A DNA stretch of 47,535 bases, from positions 68,632 through 116,166 of the forward strand of contig JACPQZ010000076.1 of the NCBI GenBank assembly GCA_016190205.1. Direction: 5' to 3'. Shown piece by piece: positions 1,639 to 47,535 of this stretch. Source of the stretch: Candidatus Omnitrophota bacterium. Its GTDB lineage: Bacteria > Omnitrophota > JACPQZ01. The position numbers were made by a program, and so were the translations under genes. The notes under the pieces are model-generated. The model was not told where the DNA came from. It searched no databases and saw only the letters and a list, made by a program, of their open reading frames with translations. Numbering within the stretch: position 1 is the stretch's first letter; every line of letters starts with the position of its first letter.

Positions 1639-1830
1639 CCGGTTATCGGTGTTCGGTGATCGGTTATCGCAAGCGTCGTAAGCTATCAGCTGTCAGCCTT
1701 CAGCCATCAGCTATCTGCTTTCAGCTGACGGCTGACGGCTGAAAGCAGAAAGCCCGTTCTATTTCTTTTCTTGCAATAACCGATCAACGATGACCGATCA
1801 ACGGATTGCGATCACCGATGACCGATTCCC
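1639..1830. repeat. Composite heptamer element: GATCACC family enclosing TCAGCCT family
   Basis: This is a nested repeat with left arm GGTTATC/GGTGATC heptamers at 1639-1671, an inner TCAGCCT array at 1682-1715, its inverted complement GGCTGAC/GGCTGAA at about 1722-1746, and an outer returning arm of ACCGATC-type heptamers at 1777-1830. The 46-bp block 1666-1711 recurs at 17305-17350 with one mismatch. The whole region could form one long branched hairpin. Confidence 0.88.
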
Positions 1831-2570: not shown

Positions 2571-3452
2571 TCAGCGACAAAAACTGGACCCAAGCGCCTT
2601 GGCCACAAAAAAACGCGCGGGTCCAGCACCCTGGCTACCCAACTGGCTGCGCAGACGGTCGCGCGTGCGAACCGCCTCCTCTTTCGAAGTAAATAGGGCA
2701 AAAACAGAAGGTCCGCTGCCGGACATGCATACGGATTGAACGCCGATGGAACGCAGGCAGTGGATGAGCCTTCCCACCACCGGTTTTAAGACCACCGTGA
2801 CTTTCTGTAAGTCGTTATGTAGCAATTGGATAATGTCAGAGAGCGGCTGAAGAATCTTACGCGGCATTCTAGCACCCAACACAGGACTTGTCAAGAATGG
2901 CCCCATAGACCCTATATACGAATATATCATATCGGTGCGCACCGGCACGGAGGGGGTTACGATAAGCGCCCAAAAGGGCGCACGCAAGTCAGCGGGCACG
3001 ATCCGGTCACCCCTCGCGAGCCCCCAGGCGCTTCCACAGCCGGACACAAAAAAGGGGACGTCCGCCCCGATGGCCCGGGCCTCCTCGTTCAAAACCTTCC
3101 TCGGCAAACGCAGATTCCAAAGACGGTTGAGTCCCAAGAGGGTTGAGGCGGCATTGGAGCTCGCTCCGCCCAAGCCTGCCGCCACCGGGATGCGTTTTTT
3201 GAGAAAGATTCGAACCCCCTGCCGGCCCCTCGTGAAACGCTCAAGCCGCCTCGCCGCCGCGACGCACAGATTGGTCCCGTCGCGCGGGACCCCGGCGGCC
3301 GATGTGGAAATGGAGACGCCTCGCGGTGCCTGCTCCAAGATAATCTCATCGCAGAGATCGACGAGTTGAAAGAGGGTGCGGATCTCGTGATACCCGTCCG
3401 GCCGTCTCCCCAATACCTCGAGCCGCAGGTTGATCTTGGCAGGAGACTTTAT
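2571..3452 (-). CDS. ispE: IspE, 4-diphosphocytidyl-2-C-methyl-D-erythritol kinase, apparent ATA start
   Basis: IspE is the GHMP kinase of the non-mevalonate (MEP) isoprenoid pathway. The frame shows PAKINLRLEVLGRRPDGYHE at the N-terminus, the ATP-binding glycine-rich loop AAGLGGASSNAAS and the C-terminal GSGPSVFAL motif. The first canonical start (TTG at 3413) would remove PAKINL, which is conserved. Upstream, the frame contains no ATG, GTG or TTG back to its stop. The best fit is ATA at 3452 within ATAA, overlapping the TAA stop of the TPR gene and giving 293 residues beginning (M)KSPAKINL. This looks like an ATGA overlap whose G became A. The function is secure, the start is inferred. Confidence 0.9.
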   Translation of the reverse strand: MKSPAKINLRLEVLGRRPDGYHEIRTLFQLVDLCDEIILEQAPRGVSISTSAAGVPRDGTNLCVAAARRLERFTRGRQGVRIFLKKRIPVAAGLGGASSNAASTLLGLNRLWNLRLPRKVLNEEARAIGADVPFFVSGCGSAWGLARGDRIVPADLRAPFWALIVTPSVPVRTDMIYSYIGSMGPFLTSPVLGARMPRKILQPLSDIIQLLHNDLQKVTVVLKPVVGRLIHCLRSIGVQSVCMSGSGPSVFALFTSKEEAVRTRDRLRSQLGSQGAGPARFFVAKALGSSFCR

Positions 3453-5005
3453 TCGGATGCTTTTAACGGATCTTTCTCCAAGCGGCTCTTTAAGGCTGCC
3501 AGCTTTTCCTGAACCTTACTTTGCCCCGGATCCAGCTTCAGGGACTGCTCCCAGTGCTCCTGGGCCTGGGACCAGAGCTCGAGTTGATTATACATATCTC
3601 CCAAGTGATCTTGGATCACGGGGTCATCGGGCATGAGTTCGCCCGCGCGCTCCAGCCACTTCCGGGCATCCTCCCACATCCCCTTCTTAAAATACACCCA
3701 TCCCAGGCTGTCCACGTAGGCCCCGTTATCTGGCTCGAGCTTAAGGGCCTGCTGAATAAGCTCCAGGGCTTCATCCAGATGCATCCCCGCCTCTGCGTAC
3801 ATATAACCCAGGTAATTGTAGGCATCGGCGTTTTCCGGATTAACCCGGATGGCGCTCTTAAACTCCTCCGCCGCCTTCTCCTTGTCACCCATGCGGTCAT
3901 GCAGGGCGCCCAGCCGGAAATAGACATAATCATTCGTGGATTCGGCGTCCTTGGACTCGTTGAGAAACTGAACCGCCTCCTCATTTTGACCGAGCTCCGC
4001 ATGCGAAATCCCGAGGAGGAAACTCACCTCGTAGTTTTTTCCCGCAAGACCCCGCGCCTTCTCCAACACCCCCACGGCCTCTTCATAGCGCCGCTCCTTT
4101 AAGAGAAGGTAGGCCAGCTCGATGAAGCCGTCCACATGGTCCGGCTTGAGCTCCATGAGAAGTTTGTACTGCTGGATGGCCTCTTCTACCCGCCCGGCCT
4201 GGTAGTACATCTGCCCTAGATGATGGTACACCCTTAAATTCAGGGGATTGACCTTGAGCACCTCCTCGTACTGGGCGATGGACCTGTCCTTTTCGCCCTG
4301 CATCTCATAGATGACGGCAAGCCCCAGGCGCGCCTCCACATAGCCGGGCTTAAGTTCTACGGCCTTGTTGAGCATTGAGAGGGCGGCATCATAGCGGTTC
4401 ATCCGGCTAAACAGGATGCCCAGATTAAAATAGGTGACGGGCTCTGTCCGGCCCGCCGCGATTATTTTTTCATAGACGGCCACGGCCTGCGGCAGCTGGT
4501 CTTCCATGACATAAAGATCCGCCAGCGCGGTCAAGGCCTGTTCGTCTTGAGGCTCCTGCGCCAGGATCTTTTGATAATTCTCAATCGCCTTTGGGTACAT
4601 CTGCCGCGAAGTATAGAGAAGGGCAAGCAGAAAGAGGGGGCGGGTGTTACCAGGATCGAGCTCCTGACTTTTTTCCAGGGCCTCCACGGCCTCGTCAAAA
4701 CGGCCCATGCGAATGAGGCTCGCGCCCAACCGCAGGTGAATGATGGCATTGTCAGGATCGAGGCGCAGGGCCTCCTCGTAAGCATCTATGGCCGCTACGG
4801 TATTGCCGCGGTTGTCGTGCAAAAGGCCGCGCGTGTAGCTGGCCCAGGCCCGAGTCTTGTCGGTATCCGTCTTACCGGTCTTGCGGATGCCCGCGCATCC
4901 GGGCGCGAGGAGGGTGACCAGTATTAGGAGGGAAGCAGCGATTCGTACTGCGTACTGCGTACTGCGTACTGCGAGAGTCGACAGTCGACAGTCGACAGTC
5001 GACAA
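3449..5005 (-). CDS. TPR-repeat lipoprotein with start region inside heptamer repeats
   Basis: From the proposed TTG at 5005 the product has 518 residues. A hydrophobic segment around residues 22-33 is followed by a lipobox-like APGC, with Cys near residue 37, suggesting export and lipidation. The rest is a continuous array of roughly twelve tetratricopeptide repeats (patterns such as AIDAYEEALRLDPDNA), a scaffold for protein-protein contacts. No ATG exists near the signal peptide. The TTG has GGAG seven nt before it; GTG codons at 5020 and 5026 are alternatives. The frame stays open to a GTG at 5221, but that extension is pure heptamer sequence. Residues about 4-21 are encoded by GTCGACA and GTACTGC repeats. 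Binding partners are unknown. Confidence 0.8.
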   Translation of the reverse strand: MSTVDCRLSTLAVRSTQYAVRIAASLLILVTLLAPGCAGIRKTGKTDTDKTRAWASYTRGLLHDNRGNTVAAIDAYEEALRLDPDNAIIHLRLGASLIRMGRFDEAVEALEKSQELDPGNTRPLFLLALLYTSRQMYPKAIENYQKILAQEPQDEQALTALADLYVMEDQLPQAVAVYEKIIAAGRTEPVTYFNLGILFSRMNRYDAALSMLNKAVELKPGYVEARLGLAVIYEMQGEKDRSIAQYEEVLKVNPLNLRVYHHLGQMYYQAGRVEEAIQQYKLLMELKPDHVDGFIELAYLLLKERRYEEAVGVLEKARGLAGKNYEVSFLLGISHAELGQNEEAVQFLNESKDAESTNDYVYFRLGALHDRMGDKEKAAEEFKSAIRVNPENADAYNYLGYMYAEAGMHLDEALELIQQALKLEPDNGAYVDSLGWVYFKKGMWEDARKWLERAGELMPDDPVIQDHLGDMYNQLELWSQAQEHWEQSLKLDPGQSKVQEKLAALKSRLEKDPLKASE

Positions 5006-5219
5006 CCTGCGACTCCGCACATCCACGGCTAGCCTATCACCCCTGCTCCTTCTTGCTTCTTCCTCCGTCTCTCGGCAGACCGTGAACTGTGGACTGTAGA
5101 CAGCGGACAGTGGACCGTGGACCGTGGACTGTGGACGCACAACGCACAACGCACCACGCACCACGCACGACGGGGGATTTTCGGCATGCGATCCCCGATC
5201 CCCGATCCCCGATCCCCGC
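4944..5219. repeat. Five-family heptamer array upstream of and within the TPR lipoprotein start
   Basis: Successive 7-bp arrays are GTACTGC at 4944-4974, GTCGACA at 4977-5005, GTGGACT/GTGGACC at about 5080-5136, CGCACAA/CGCACCA at 5136-5170 and GATCCCC at 5189-5219. Each is tandem with a period of 7 and few mismatches. The array lies between hisG (stop at 5223) and the lipoprotein signal peptide and partly codes for its N-terminus. It is the densest mix of families in the window. Confidence 0.9.
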
Positions 5220-5222
5220 ACG

Positions 5223-7312: not shown

Positions 7313-7526
7313 TCGTACTGCGTACTGCGTCGTGCGTACTGCGTAACGTCTGGGCGAGCAGGATTCGTACAGCGTTAGGCATGCGACGATTAGCGTAGAG
7401 CGTAGAGCGTATAGCGTAGAGGAAAGGGTTTTACTCTATACGCTATCCGCTATCCGCTATCCGCTATCCGCTAAACGCTATCCGCTAAACGCTTCACGTT
7501 CCACGCTGTACGCAGTACGCTGTACG
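7313..7526. repeat. Nested heptamer element: GTACTGC outer, GCGTAGA/GCTATCC inner
   Basis: The left arm 7313-7375 contains GTACTGC heptamers and a non-repeat core (GTCTGGGCGAGCAGG). It is identical over 63 bp to 43116-43178. The inner part is AGCGTAG-type repeats at 7393-7423 facing CGCTATC/CGCTAAA repeats at 7439-7494, and an outer returning arm ACGCTGT/ACGCAGT at 7498-7526. The geometry is arm, arm, inverted arm, inverted arm. It fills the 227-bp gap between larB and larC. Confidence 0.92.
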
Positions 7527-22351: not shown

Positions 22352-22761
22352 GGTCCTTCTCCTCCTCTCACTGTGTCTTGCGCTGCAAACACTTTCTGAA
22401 GGAACTGCCCCGTCGTGCGCGTGTCGCCGAGGCCCCCGCCCACCATAAGCTCGCCCAGCTCCCCCCGGTCGCACCAGAGCCCGTGCAGGCGCGGGCAGCG
22501 GTCTACGAGCACCTTCCGGTCTACGCCATGCGCCACCTTCCTCATCCGCATCCGGCAGATGGGACAGCGCCTCTTTTTTTCACGGGACTTCAAGTCCTCC
22601 GCCCCGAACGACAAAAACACGCGAGCCCTCTCCGAGCCTTCCAGCAAAAGTTCCAACTCACCCTCATCGAGCCACACCCCCCCGCAGTCCATACAGTGGT
22701 CCAGCTCCACTTCATCTAGTTCCAGCACCACCATAGGATCTTTGCAGGCCGGGCAATTCAT
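22348..22761 (-). CDS. Tandem TFIIB-type zinc-ribbon protein
   Basis: The 137-residue protein has two copies of the small ribbon known as zf-TFIIB: CPAC...CMDCGGVWLDEGELELLL near the N-terminus and CPICRMRM...DRCPRLHGLWCDRGELGELM in the middle. Such proteins are soluble and presumed zinc-binding; no enzymatic function is known. The second copy has CxxC then CPRLHGLWC, so one zinc ligand may be unusual. The gene overlaps lemA by 4 nt and thus belongs to a LemA/M48 zinc-linked operon. Confidence 0.85.
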   Translation of the reverse strand: MNCPACKDPMVVLELDEVELDHCMDCGGVWLDEGELELLLEGSERARVFLSFGAEDLKSREKKRRCPICRMRMRKVAHGVDRKVLVDRCPRLHGLWCDRGELGELMVGGGLGDTRTTGQFLQKVFAAQDTVRGGEGP

Positions 22762-23903
22762 TTGATCGAAATAAATGCCTCTTCTTTAAGTTCATTCACC
22801 CATGTCCGGAAGGCCGCAGAGAATTTTTCCTGGTAGAGCGCGTTCTCAATCTCATCGTTAACTTCTTGAAACGCAGGCAGGGATGCCTCCTGTCTCACAT
22901 CCACCCTGAAGAAGTGGTAGCCCACGCGGGACTCGACGGGGCCCGAAATTTCGCTCACCTTCAAAGAAAAGAGGGTCTTGTCAATCTCTTCCACCATTTC
23001 CCCCCGGGAAACGAACCCTAAGTCCCCGCCCTCGTCGCGGTTGGGGCCTTCGGAATACTGCTTGCAGACTTCCTCGAAGGGGGTCCCTTGCTCAAGAAGA
23101 GCGCGCACGCGCTCCAGTTTTTCAAGGACGAGGTCCTGACCCTCCACCGTTGCCTCGTCCTCCGCCTCCCCAAGGCCATCGCCGGCCGGGGCCTCATCTT
23201 CGGGGCGCGCCTTGCGTATGAGGATCATCCTGGCTCTAACCTTCTCCGGCGTCTTAAAATCGTCCGCATGAGCACTATAGTAATCTTGTATCTCCTTGGG
23301 AGATACGATGATACGAGATCTGACCTCCATTCCGATAAGCTGCTGAATCAGGTGCTGGTCCCTGTACTTTTGCCTCAATTCTTCCAGCGAGAGCCCCTGC
23401 TCGCTCACAGCCTGATGGAAGGCTTCCTCCGATTCGAATTTTCCAATGACCTCGCGGACGCGCTCCTCCACCTGCTCGGCGCTCGCCTCGAGTCCCTTTT
23501 CACGCGCCCTCTGCAGAATGAGGTGATCCTCGATGATCTGCCCCAGAATATCCCTGCGTGCCTCGGAGATCTTTCGCACAAGCCCTTCTCCCTGATAAAC
23601 CGTCTGATACTGCGCGACAATGGGATTCAGGCGCTCCATGAGCTCGCTCTGCGTGACGATGTCTTCGTTGACGACCGCGACAATCCTGTCGACTACCTCT
23701 GCCACCGCTATAGATATAACAGGACGGAACCATGATTCGGGAAGCGGGAAGCGGGAAGCGGGAAGCGAAAGAAACCAGATACCAGAAACCAGCAACCAGA
23801 AGAAACCAGTTACCAGAAACCAGAGATGGGGCGAACGGATCTTTTTCTGGTATCTGGTATCTGGTATCCTCTGGTATCTGGTTACTGGTTTCTGGTTACT
23901 CAT
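22758..23903 (-). CDS. surA: SurA-like periplasmic chaperone/peptidyl-prolyl isomerase
   Basis: The mature part starts near residue 69 with EVVDRIVAVVNEDIVTQSEL, the SurA N-terminal domain, and has one parvulin domain around residues 220-345 (ARMILIRKAR, then GGDLGFVSRGEM, and SRVGYHFFRV). SurA assists folding of outer-membrane proteins, so an outer membrane is implied. The start ATG at 23903 overlaps the mfd stop. The first 68 residues have a basic stretch then a hydrophobic one (residues 27-47), and almost all of this is encoded by ACCAGAA and GAAGCGG heptamers. No other canonical start precedes the mature domain except a GTG at 23705 that would lack any signal. Function firm, start moderately sure. 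Confidence 0.87.
   Translation of the reverse strand: MSNQKPVTRYQRIPDTRYQKKIRSPHLWFLVTGFFWLLVSGIWFLSLPASRFPLPESWFRPVISIAVAEVVDRIVAVVNEDIVTQSELMERLNPIVAQYQTVYQGEGLVRKISEARRDILGQIIEDHLILQRAREKGLEASAEQVEERVREVIGKFESEEAFHQAVSEQGLSLEELRQKYRDQHLIQQLIGMEVRSRIIVSPKEIQDYYSAHADDFKTPEKVRARMILIRKARPEDEAPAGDGLGEAEDEATVEGQDLVLEKLERVRALLEQGTPFEEVCKQYSEGPNRDEGGDLGFVSRGEMVEEIDKTLFSLKVSEISGPVESRVGYHFFRVDVRQEASLPAFQEVNDEIENALYQEKFSAAFRTWVNELKEEAFISIK
23739..23900. repeat. Heptamer arrays ACCAGAA and GAAGCGG, coding for the SurA-like signal peptide
   Basis: GAAGCGG occurs about four times at 23739-23768. ACCAGAA/ACCAGCA heptamers cover 23775-23825, and their inverted arm TATCTGG/TTTCTGG covers 23847-23900. The region lies inside the surA-like frame and reaches the mfd stop codon. 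Period 7 is maintained throughout. Confidence 0.9.
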
Positions 23904-25806
23904 GACGCCCACGCCCTCGTCCTTTCAACCGCTCCACTTCCTGTTTCAGCAACTGACAGTACAAATCGAATCCCACTGCAATGATCCAGCCGTGCTGCTC
24001 CGACCCCAGGATATTGCCCGCCCCCCGTATCTCCAAGTCCTCCATCGCGATGTTAAACCCGGAACCCAGTTCCGTAAAGCGCTCGATCGCCTTGAGACGG
24101 CGGCTCCCCTTCTCTGGAATAACCTGCCTGCCGGGATACAGGAAATAGGCATAGGCCTGCCGGTTAAACCGGCCCACGCGACCCCGCAACTGGTAGAGGT
24201 CGGCCAGCCCGAACTGATCGGCCCGGTTGACGATGAGTGTATTCGCGTTTGGGATGTCCAGCCCAGACTCAATGATGTTCGTCGCGACCAGGACATCCAG
24301 CTTTCCGTCCATAAACTTAAGGATGATCTCCTCAAGTTCATGTTCGTCCATCTGCCCGTGGCATATATCCATCTTAGCCTGCGGAACGAGCTTGCGCAAG
24401 CGTTCTGCCACATTTTCTATGCCCTCCACGCGGTTGTGCACGAAGAAAACCTGTCCCCCGCGCTTAAGCTCACGGCACATGGCATCCTGCACCACCTCAT
24501 CGTTATAGGGCTCCACGTGAGTTTCGATGGGGACGCGGTTCTGGGGAGGAGTGCTCACGATCGAAAAATCCTTGATACCCATCAGAGACATATAGAGCGT
24601 TCGCGGGATAGGCGTCGCGGTGAGTGTCAGGACATCCACCACGGTGCGGAAGGACTTGAGTTTCTCCTTGTGACGGACCCCGAAGCGCTGCTCCTCGTCG
24701 ATCACCACGAGCCCCAGCTTCCGGAAGCGGATGTCTTTGGAAAGGAGCCGGTGCGTTCCGATAACGACGTCGCAGGAACCTTCGTCCAAAGCCTTAACCG
24801 TTTGTTTGAGTTCTTGAGAGCTTCGGAACCTAGATAGCATTTGCACGTCGATAGGATATGGGGCGAACCGCTTCTTAAAGGTCCGGTAATGCTGTTCCGC
24901 GAGAATCGTGGTAGGCACGAGCAGAGCGGCCTGCTTGCCGCTCTCAACAGCCTTAAAAACCGCCCGGAGCGCCACCTCCGTTTTTCCGTAACCGACGTCG
25001 CCGCAGATGAGGCGATCCATAGGATAAAGGCGCTCCATGTCACGCTTGACCTCTTCGCTTGACCGGGTCTGGTCGAGCGTCTCCTCAAACTCGAACGACG
25101 CCTCCAGCTCCTTCTGCCACGCGCCGTCAGGCCCGAAGGCAAAACCCCGCTTCGCACGCCGAACAGCCTCCAGCCTCAATAAATCCTCGGCGAGATGACC
25201 CACCGCAAGCCGGGCCTTTTTCTTCATCCGCCCCCATTCCGAGCCCTGCATCCGGCTCAATTTCGGGGCCCTTCCCCCCACCCCGACGTAGCGCCTCAAA
25301 AGCCCCGCCTGATCCACCGGGCAATAAAGCCTTTCATTATCCGCGTATCGTATGACGAGGTGCTCGACCCGGCGGCGCTCAATCTCAAGGTACTCCCATC
25401 CCACGAAGCGGCCGATGCCATATTGAATGTGCACCACGTGATCTCCGGGTTCCAGGGTGCGCAACTCATCGATGGGCGCGATCTCCCGCCATCCAAAGGG
25501 GGCCTCCTTGATTTGGGCGGGTTTAACGCAGCGGGCGGGGAGGATAACAACGCGCTGGTGGCTGGCGAGAAAGTGCCCTGCCTGATCGTCAAAGCTCCGC
25601 ACAGAAATGACGGAATCTCCGGAAAACTCAACACGCAGGGGGCTGTGGTGGGTGATGGGGAAAATATCCACGAGCCCGCCGCGCACGCAAAAATCGCCCC
25701 GTTCCGCCACCCGGCGAACGCCCTGGTAGCCCAGCTCAACGAGGCGACTGGCAACTATGCTTGGCGAGCTTTTCTTATGTACTTCTACGGTGAGTAAATC
25801 AAACAC
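23896..25806 (-). CDS. mfd: Short Mfd-like transcription-repair translocase (mini-Mfd)
   Basis: The 636 residues keep a UvrB-like domain 2 (about 1-92, with FCVRGGLVDIFP), the CarD-like RNA-polymerase-interacting domain (about 121-180, HIQYGIGRF), and both RecG-type motor domains: Walker A GDVGYGKTE near residue 269, DEEQRFG, TATPIPRTL and QLRGRVGR. Bacterial Mfd is about 1,100 residues. Absent are domain 1a, the domain 1b/3 block normally between domain 2 and the polymerase domain, and the autoinhibitory C-terminal domain 7. The start is a GTG with an in-frame TAA five codons upstream. The frame ends exactly at a heptamer array. It is intact as a reading frame, so possibly functional as a polymerase translocase rather than a full coupling factor. 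Confidence 0.85.
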   Translation of the reverse strand: MFDLLTVEVHKKSSPSIVASRLVELGYQGVRRVAERGDFCVRGGLVDIFPITHHSPLRVEFSGDSVISVRSFDDQAGHFLASHQRVVILPARCVKPAQIKEAPFGWREIAPIDELRTLEPGDHVVHIQYGIGRFVGWEYLEIERRRVEHLVIRYADNERLYCPVDQAGLLRRYVGVGGRAPKLSRMQGSEWGRMKKKARLAVGHLAEDLLRLEAVRRAKRGFAFGPDGAWQKELEASFEFEETLDQTRSSEEVKRDMERLYPMDRLICGDVGYGKTEVALRAVFKAVESGKQAALLVPTTILAEQHYRTFKKRFAPYPIDVQMLSRFRSSQELKQTVKALDEGSCDVVIGTHRLLSKDIRFRKLGLVVIDEEQRFGVRHKEKLKSFRTVVDVLTLTATPIPRTLYMSLMGIKDFSIVSTPPQNRVPIETHVEPYNDEVVQDAMCRELKRGGQVFFVHNRVEGIENVAERLRKLVPQAKMDICHGQMDEHELEEIILKFMDGKLDVLVATNIIESGLDIPNANTLIVNRADQFGLADLYQLRGRVGRFNRQAYAYFLYPGRQVIPEKGSRRLKAIERFTELGSGFNIAMEDLEIRGAGNILGSEQHGWIIAVGFDLYCQLLKQEVERLKGRGRGRHE

Positions 25807-43621: not shown

Positions 43622-43649
43622 CTTTCACCCTCTTAGCGAGCCCGGTCCG

Positions 43650-43775
43650 TGCTTCGTTCTTCGTTCTTCGTGCTTCGTGCTTCGTGCGTCGTGCGTCCCA
43701 CAGACTGCCGGGTAACGAGTGAGGGGATCTTTTTTAGCTGTTACGAAGCACGAGGCACGCGGCACGAAGCACGCC
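43650..43775. repeat. Heptamer array, GTGCTTC / ACGAAGC family
   Basis: The left arm CGTTCTT/CGTTCTT/CGTGCTT/CGTGCTT/CGTGCGT/CGTGCGT (43651-43697) faces ACGAAGCACGAGGCACGCGGCACGAAGCACG-type units (43743-43773). It lies between rpsJ and rpmG. Confidence 0.9.
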
Positions 43776-45258: not shown

Positions 45259-45341
45259 CCCGTGCTTCGTGCCTCGTGCCTCGTGCTTCGTAACGGTTGA
45301 CGATGAACGAAGCACGATGAACGAAGAACGAAGCACGAACA
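45259..45341. repeat. Heptamer array, GTGCTTC / ACGAAGC family
   Basis: GTGCTTCGTGCCTCGTGCCTCGTGCTTCG (45261-45289) faces ACGAAGCACGATGAACGAAGAACGAAGCACG (about 45308-45340). It lies between tuf and fusA and is the same family as 43650-43775. Confidence 0.9.
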
Positions 45342-47441: not shown

Positions 47442-47535
47442 ACATCCGTGATTCGTGATTCGTGAAACGTAGTTGACGGCTTGAGTAACCAGAAACCAGC
47501 AACCAGATACCAGAAGATTCCAGAGACCAGATACC
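47442..47535. repeat. Heptamer arrays GTGATTC and ACCAGAA upstream of fusA (runs off the window)
   Basis: GTGATTC/GTGATTC/GTGAAAC units occupy 47446-47469 and ACCAGAA/ACCAGCA/ACCAGAT units occupy 47488-47535, reaching the window edge. The second family is that of the SurA-like signal region. Any inverted arm lies outside. Confidence 0.85.

Follow-up and report, generated by a model that had tools for sequence, protein, structure and literature searches.

The n- and h-regions of the export signal of a SurA-like parvulin chaperone in an uncultured bacterium of Candidatus Omnitrophota have probably been replaced by a copy of a dispersed inverted-heptamer element, which lies at the mfd-surA junction and would be read from ATG 23903 as a Sec signal. 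The copy lies in the window, by which we mean the whole stretch of 47,535 nucleotides that was analysed. In the mechanism we propose, translation most likely starts at ATG 23903 and is coupled to the termination of mfd; the first arm of the element would then code for a polar, basic n-region and the second for a 19-residue hydrophobic helix, after which a CGGGAAG array and the ancestral c-region, still retained, would lead in frame into the mature SurA domain. Such a replacement would be possible because the heptapeptide encoded by a 7-nt array does not depend on the frame and because two inverted arrays give a polar, basic segment followed by a hydrophobic one. The junction comprises the following features:

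23896-25806, minus strand: mfd, transcription-repair coupling factor, upstream of surA (TIGR00580, 2e-261)
22758-23903, minus strand: surA-like parvulin chaperone gene, 381 aa read from ATG 23903
23896-23903, minus strand: ATGAGTAA, the surA start codon overlapping the mfd stop
23846-23900, minus strand: first arm, ACCAG heptamers (four units, a 3-nt slip, three units), coding the basic/polar n-region, about residues 2-20
23824-23845, no strand assigned: spacer or loop of the inverted pair, 22 nt, coding about residues 20-27 (KKIRSPHL)
23770-23823, minus strand: second, inverted arm, CTGGT heptamers, coding most of the hydrophobic run LWFLVTGFFWLLVSGIWFL
23769-23825, minus strand: hydrophobic run, residues 27-45, within the AlphaFold2 helix 26-46
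23738-23767, minus strand: separate CGGGAAG array of 4.3 perfect units, coding about residues 46-56 (SLPASRFPLPE)
23700-23731, minus strand: retained ancestral signal c-region, WFRPVISIAVA|E, aligning with the cleavage region of orthologs

Both the SurA N-terminal and the parvulin PPIase domains are present in the product (Pfam SurA_N, 9.9e-14; SurA_N_3; Rotamase, 4.2e-19), and the PDB folds nearest to its AlphaFold2 model are SurA first, then PrsA and PEB4. The product fell short of the NCBIfam SurA equivalog cut-off and is therefore labelled SurA-like rather than a proven SurA; it is the sole SurA-like match found in the genome. Re-reading of the sequence returned the coordinates, frame and translation given for ATG 23903 in the preliminary description: on the minus strand, the frame is open from GTG 23912 and ATG 23903 through 22758, and ATG 23903 is in frame with the SurA_N and Rotamase domains. 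The TAA stop of mfd sits within the first unit of the element (AGTAACC), and in many relatives mfd is found directly upstream of surA. The Mfd of the window is short, beginning in the UvrB-interaction domain with stops in the upstream frames to 26548, and no match to the TRCF C-terminal domain was detected in it; the Mfd of relatives likewise terminates shortly after GFDLYC.

The arms in surA form an inverted repeat of seven units each, and the N-terminal peptide read from ATG 23903 is MSNQKPVTRYQRIPDTRYQKKIRSPH-LWFLVTGFFWLLVSGIWFL-SLPASRFPLPE-SWFRPVISIAVA|EVVDRIVAVVN. Translated in the surA frame, the first arm gives the basic segment and the inverted arm the hydrophobic run, as had been described from the start. 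The accompanying statement that the first 57 residues are repeats holds as far as the N-terminus is repeat-coded, with the amendment that residues ~22-27 are spacer and residues 46-56 belong to the CGGGAAG array. In this copy, the coding strand is open in one frame only, which is the frame in use.

The capacity to encode such a sequence is a generic property of the family. As 7 is not a multiple of 3, successive units are read in all three frames one after another, and the heptapeptide that an array encodes is the same whichever frame is entered. In the ACCAG sense, 70 arms had a mean Kyte-Doolittle value of -1.83 and a charge of +1.65, with 125 of 210 frames free of stops; in the CTGGT sense, 70 arms gave a mean of +1.24 and a charge of about 0, and 169 of 210 frames lacked stops. 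Because the arms are inverted, a basic segment is followed by a hydrophobic one on either strand, and the inverted symmetry together with the 7-nt period likely produces this order in most open frames. Taken whole, paired elements have 52 open frames out of 210.

The repeat in surA is no local feature; it belongs to a family found across the genome. We detected at least 48 copies in the genome, 35 of them paired, and a pattern of three ACCAG units had 159 matches in the 1.65-Mb genome, compared with 0 for the reversed control. The copies share an architecture in which a slip of 3 or 4 nt separates four units from three more and a variable spacer then leads to the same arm inverted; the outer ends are AGNNACCAG. 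The arms are inverted and complementary to the ends, constituting terminal inverted repeats, as in a MITE; a MITE with target-site duplication was rejected on finding no consistent flanking duplication across the 35 paired copies. Many copies adjoin or overlap the stop and start codons of their neighbours. Nearly all copies other than that in surA are intergenic, and the downstream gene has its own ATG 3' of the element (fusA, pdxJ, dnaJ, sucC-like and others, named from sequence), whereas surA has none. The window contains a second copy:

47484-47530, plus strand: one arm of the element, cut by the window end, upstream of fusA, whose own ATG comes after it

At a fixed threshold, 35 period-7 segments were found in the window, far more than chance would give: periods 4-6 and 8-12 yielded 0, as did shuffles. 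Over 320 kb of the genome there were 82, against 0-1. Varied heptamer units, often in inverted pairs, occur at many intergenic sites of the window (1640-1753, 5079-5218, 7314-7526, 43648-43773 and 45261-45339), and period-7 arrays were also seen near surA in other Omnitrophota (L113, L115, L124 and L153). The occurrence of period-7 arrays of many units, also in other Omnitrophota, suggests some mechanism making 7-nt arrays of any sequence. The ACCAG heptamer itself was rejected as a phylum-wide sequence, ACCAG arrays being present in 30 of 384 genomes; in G056, a relative that bears them, the surA signal is ordinary.

As RNA, the surA arms fold into a hairpin of -80.9 kcal/mol (z -7.8) that starts immediately 3' of the surA start codon; Rfam returned a single tRNA in the window and no known RNA family at the element. 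A hairpin at this position could impede initiation unless translation is coupled, and it counts against our preferred explanation. It also bears on an alternative that we regard as unlikely while giving it real weight, namely that the element is kept for a DNA or RNA hairpin between mfd and surA, with a role in mRNA processing, stability, attenuation or protein binding, and that the signal is a tolerated by-product. The complementarity of the arms is kept, as that z value indicates, the copies lie mostly between genes, and a regulatory role is ascribed to the heptanucleotide elements of other bacteria in the portions of two reports used here (PMC2700814, PMC4679880). Alone, however, a hairpin role leaves the export of surA unexplained, and since it is compatible with the replacement of the n- and h-regions, both may be true.

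We compared surA with its counterparts in 109 relatives from the phylum (29 and a further 80) and found an ordinary compact signal peptide at the same point in 107 of them. In the 29, surA has a start of its own, followed by a compact signal that ends at the same mature start, and the gene often comes right after mfd; the further 80 agree except for two, and a separate count gave 45 of 47. Given that relatives carry an ordinary signal here, we take this to be the ancestral layout. Alignment with orthologs had been proposed as a check in the preliminary description, and relatives do carry a normal signal peptide at precisely this position. In the window gene, the c-region (SIAVA|E) is kept, and the n- and h-regions consist of array sequence. 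Of the two options put forward earlier, that the repeat had created or replaced the signal, replacement is favoured over creation because the c-region of the orthologs persists downstream; we infer the pre-insertion state of this surA copy from distant orthologs. An ancestral start at ATG 23733 was rejected, as this codon is out of frame and, if shifted, would yield a signal of 12 residues only.

The two exceptions among the 109 relatives carry unrelated dispersed repeats within the same surA signal. In L143 (JACOVG010000011.1), the signal MIRKFLSLLLFFLTAYCLQLTAVFLTAVLPEE, which has a GTG start, is partly written by a CTTACTG/CTTACAG heptamer array, and the CTTACTG-type motif is dispersed, with 34 matches in its own genome compared with 2 control matches. 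In L123 (JAHJGB010000102.1), the n-region contains a 102-bp in-frame insert between MDLINIRK and IKIIIIS; 41 places in the L123 genome match this insert, and in the close relative L122 the site is cleanly empty. The idea that surA signals throughout the phylum draw on repeats systematically was rejected, such use being limited to two of the 109 relatives.

Other N-termini in this genome are also written by arrays. In a sample of 664 kb (about 40% of the genome, 510 called genes), an array overlaps the N-terminus of 35 called genes, most of which have an ATG after the array; N-termini with a usable ATG or GTG after it were left out of the array-coded count. Where no start follows the array, the proteins are mostly exported. 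Array-written leaders were found in the following:

3449-5221, minus strand: TPR lipoprotein gene of the window, with the signal n-region before lipobox IAASLLILVTLLAPGC written by CGTACTG/CGACAGT arrays (4944-5004)
C13: prepilin, with the N_methyl motif right after the array and no ATG after the array
C36: GspK/PilX-like protein and its neighbour, array-written N-termini
C11: M16 peptidase, array-written N-terminus
C15: large beta-propeller protein, array-written N-terminus
C34: TPR/peptidase-MA protein, array-written N-terminus
L084:1920-2612 (C37): GspG pseudopilin, with a leader of ~98 residues of ACCAG, TCACGAA and GCAGTAC arrays

The GspG leader has an ATG with a GGAGG site at its start and runs straight into A|FTLIELMVVVII; Ala stands in place of Gly before the FTLIE processing site. 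Hydrophobic N-termini were present in 7 of 11 array-coded genes and in 117 of 476 others (Fisher p 0.008), in a small automatic test whose cut-off was picked after seeing the data (at the stricter values of 2.3 and 2.5, p was 0.04 and 0.09). This reads as a real tendency of array-coded N-termini to belong to exported proteins and not as proof of selection for repeats, and the tendency probably arises because n-regions tolerate almost any basic sequence.

Several further observations concern these loci. A module of ~76 nt, GAGCCGAATGGCTGTAAACCTGGTGACTAGACT-ATG-ACGCAGTACGCAGTACG, is tandemly repeated, has its own ATG with GGTG 8 nt upstream, and carries this ATG into the N-termini of the GspK-like protein, its neighbour (L189:1-5400, C36) and the prepilin (L204:354-896, C13). 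A gene without a visible ATG (L082:3-731, C37) has a hydrophobic N-terminus formed by the CTGGT arm of another element copy, followed by YFVLQLTCAWGA|PQ; Pfam gave no family for its product, and it is a possible second case like surA, on a contig that begins too near to show the start. At L076:2062-2631 (C26), no ATG lies between a prepilin-like GFLLFEVLVAVAIVS and a TCACGAA array with an ACCAG element arm. Within the body of a called gene (L204/L205, C13:16638-17972), there is a heptamer-like array (SSVVRRPSSVVRRK), possibly a tolerated linker insertion.

These recurrences bear on a second alternative, assembly or consensus error, in which arrays were collapsed or mis-stitched in the metagenome-assembled genome and the real surA signal is normal. 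Such repeats are hard to assemble, and contigs of this genome end in arrays, as does the window. Nevertheless, the surA copy has the standard architecture of its family with an ORF open across it, two independent genomes carry other dispersed repeats in the same surA signal, and the same pattern is seen in other exported genes of this genome. The cases of L143 and L123 thus make an assembly accident less likely as a general explanation, and we consider such an error improbable.

The n-region of surA has a net charge of +6 over ~26 residues and is longer than in most orthologs. The hydrophobic run, of ~19-20 residues, is also longer than in most of them, its KD11 of 2.38 lies inside the ortholog range of 2.24-3.85, and its 19-residue insertion sum is favourable on a published scale. 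The AlphaFold2 model of the product has a helix at 26-46 flanked by disordered stretches, and from residue 69 onwards a SurA-like fold is predicted with confidence. The charge, the KD11 value and the modelled helix bear out the shape of an export signal, with a basic n-region and a hydrophobic core, that had been proposed. The ancestral cleavage site, AVA68|E69, is located ~21 residues past the hydrophobic run, and this long c-region argues against ordinary cleavage there; LPA49|S50 follows the core by 4 residues and has L at -3. Owing to the distance of the ancestral c-region from the run, we consider cleavage at AVA68|E69 no more likely than an uncleaved N-in/C-out anchor or a cut at LPA49|S50 as a new site. 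Acting as a Sec signal, the helix would probably be a signal-anchor, or be cut at LPA49|S50 rather than at the ancestral site, and the anchored or the cleaved form would each place the chaperone domain outside the cytoplasm. Export to the periplasm is suggested by the orthologs and by the hydrophobic segment that the array encodes.

It had been stated that GTG 23705 was the only other start in the frame; this does not hold, as an in-frame GTG lies upstream at 23912 and a TTG lies in the second arm at 23795. Initiation at GTG 23705, or at a codon near the mature domain, would leave the repeat untranslated at the 5' end, and surA would encode a cytosolic protein or be a pseudogene in decay. We give this a slim chance: elsewhere the element is nearly always upstream and non-coding, but GTG 23705 falls inside the conserved c-region, the preceding TATATCTATAGCG is no ribosome-binding site, the orthologs of this periplasmic chaperone all have signals, and the mature domain is intact and well modelled in the one SurA-like gene found. 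A start at TTG 23795, although in frame, is highly improbable, as it has no ribosome-binding site, would lie within a stable hairpin, and would give a short signal MLVSGIWFLSLPASRFPLPESWFRPVISIAVA without a basic n-region and with half of the hydrophobic run missing (11 residues, KD11 1.99, poor 19-residue insertion score). The account we prefer is the replacement of the n- and h-regions by the element, with translation from ATG 23903 and a putative export, anchoring and insertion history of this surA copy. Overall, the preliminary description stands in the shape of the signal and its position relative to orthologs, lacks support for a cleavable signal peptide and needs correction in detail on the absence of an alternative start.

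Several known repeat families resemble the element in part, and the comparisons concern the portions of the cited reports used here. Rickettsia palindromic elements (RPE) are short dispersed palindromic repeats of about 150 bp, found in frame within genes, where they add a peptide segment (PMC10969869). Our element resembles them in being palindromic and dispersed and in having an open frame within a gene (at least 48 copies, inverted arms, surA), and the stronger case is L123 with the empty site in L122. In those portions, however, RPE insert into unrelated metabolic genes and no heptamer arrays are described, whereas our element is mostly intergenic and in surA would supply a targeting signal (PMC10969869). 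We keep the two apart because phylum and unit structure differ, a separation made on the descriptions. In Geobacter metallireducens, heptanucleotide elements of four tandem GGGACCG units occupy 49 intergenic and intragenic sites (PMC2700814). Like our element, with its 4 + 3 units per arm, they consist of short tandem runs of heptamers, number in the tens and lie within genes in some cases, but they have another unit sequence and are predicted regulatory RNA elements, with no export-signal role described in the portion used (PMC2700814). The TAACTGA heptamers of marine Beggiatoaceae are abundant and crowded near start codons, and their translation products were weighed, with possible tolerance at protein ends (PMC4679880). 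They share with our element abundant period-7 repeats near starts; they are, however, direct repeats with forward-sense stop codons and essentially no inverted pairs, for which translational regulation was proposed (PMC4679880). PARCELs are dyad-symmetric DNA repeats that code protein segments, many in membrane-targeted proteins, but they form a 25-residue repeated domain in the protein body, with neither a start-site signal nor heptamers in what we drew from that source (PMC2996958). The G-rich heptamers of Xanthomonas and Nostoc are genome-wide, prefer ~four units and lie between genes, close to ORF ends, and in these respects of distribution, unit number and intergenic location they are like our element; they differ as G-quadruplex formers that are not inverted pairs, and no signal peptides are described in the portion used (PMC4692102).

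In-frame repeat insertions and heptamer repeats were already known separately, and what would be new is their use as the export signal of a core chaperone; a literature search on Omnitrophota tandem repeats and repeat-derived signal peptides found no precedent in the portions of the sources it reached. If our explanation is true, it would show how protein targeting sequences that function can come from non-coding repeats, with independent cases in one gene of three lineages and further cases in other exported proteins of this genome. It would also be a warning that automated start-codon assignment puts N-termini in the wrong place in Omnitrophota genomes rich in repeats. A broader idea, which we hold as speculative and rather doubtful, is that inverted heptamer elements serve as portable export leaders that largely do not depend on the frame, basic then hydrophobic on any strand and in any open frame, with some modules bringing their own ATG, and that heptamer-rich lineages repeatedly rebuild signal and prepilin leaders from them. 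One 7-nt unit gained or lost between start and mature domain would shift the frame, so that, if this idea is true, such changes could act as an on/off switch for the export of proteins such as SurA and GspG. The system would allow testing of how new signal peptides arise, and since several other exported proteins seem to have repeat-built leaders, repeat DNA that spreads may find a second use in addressing proteins.
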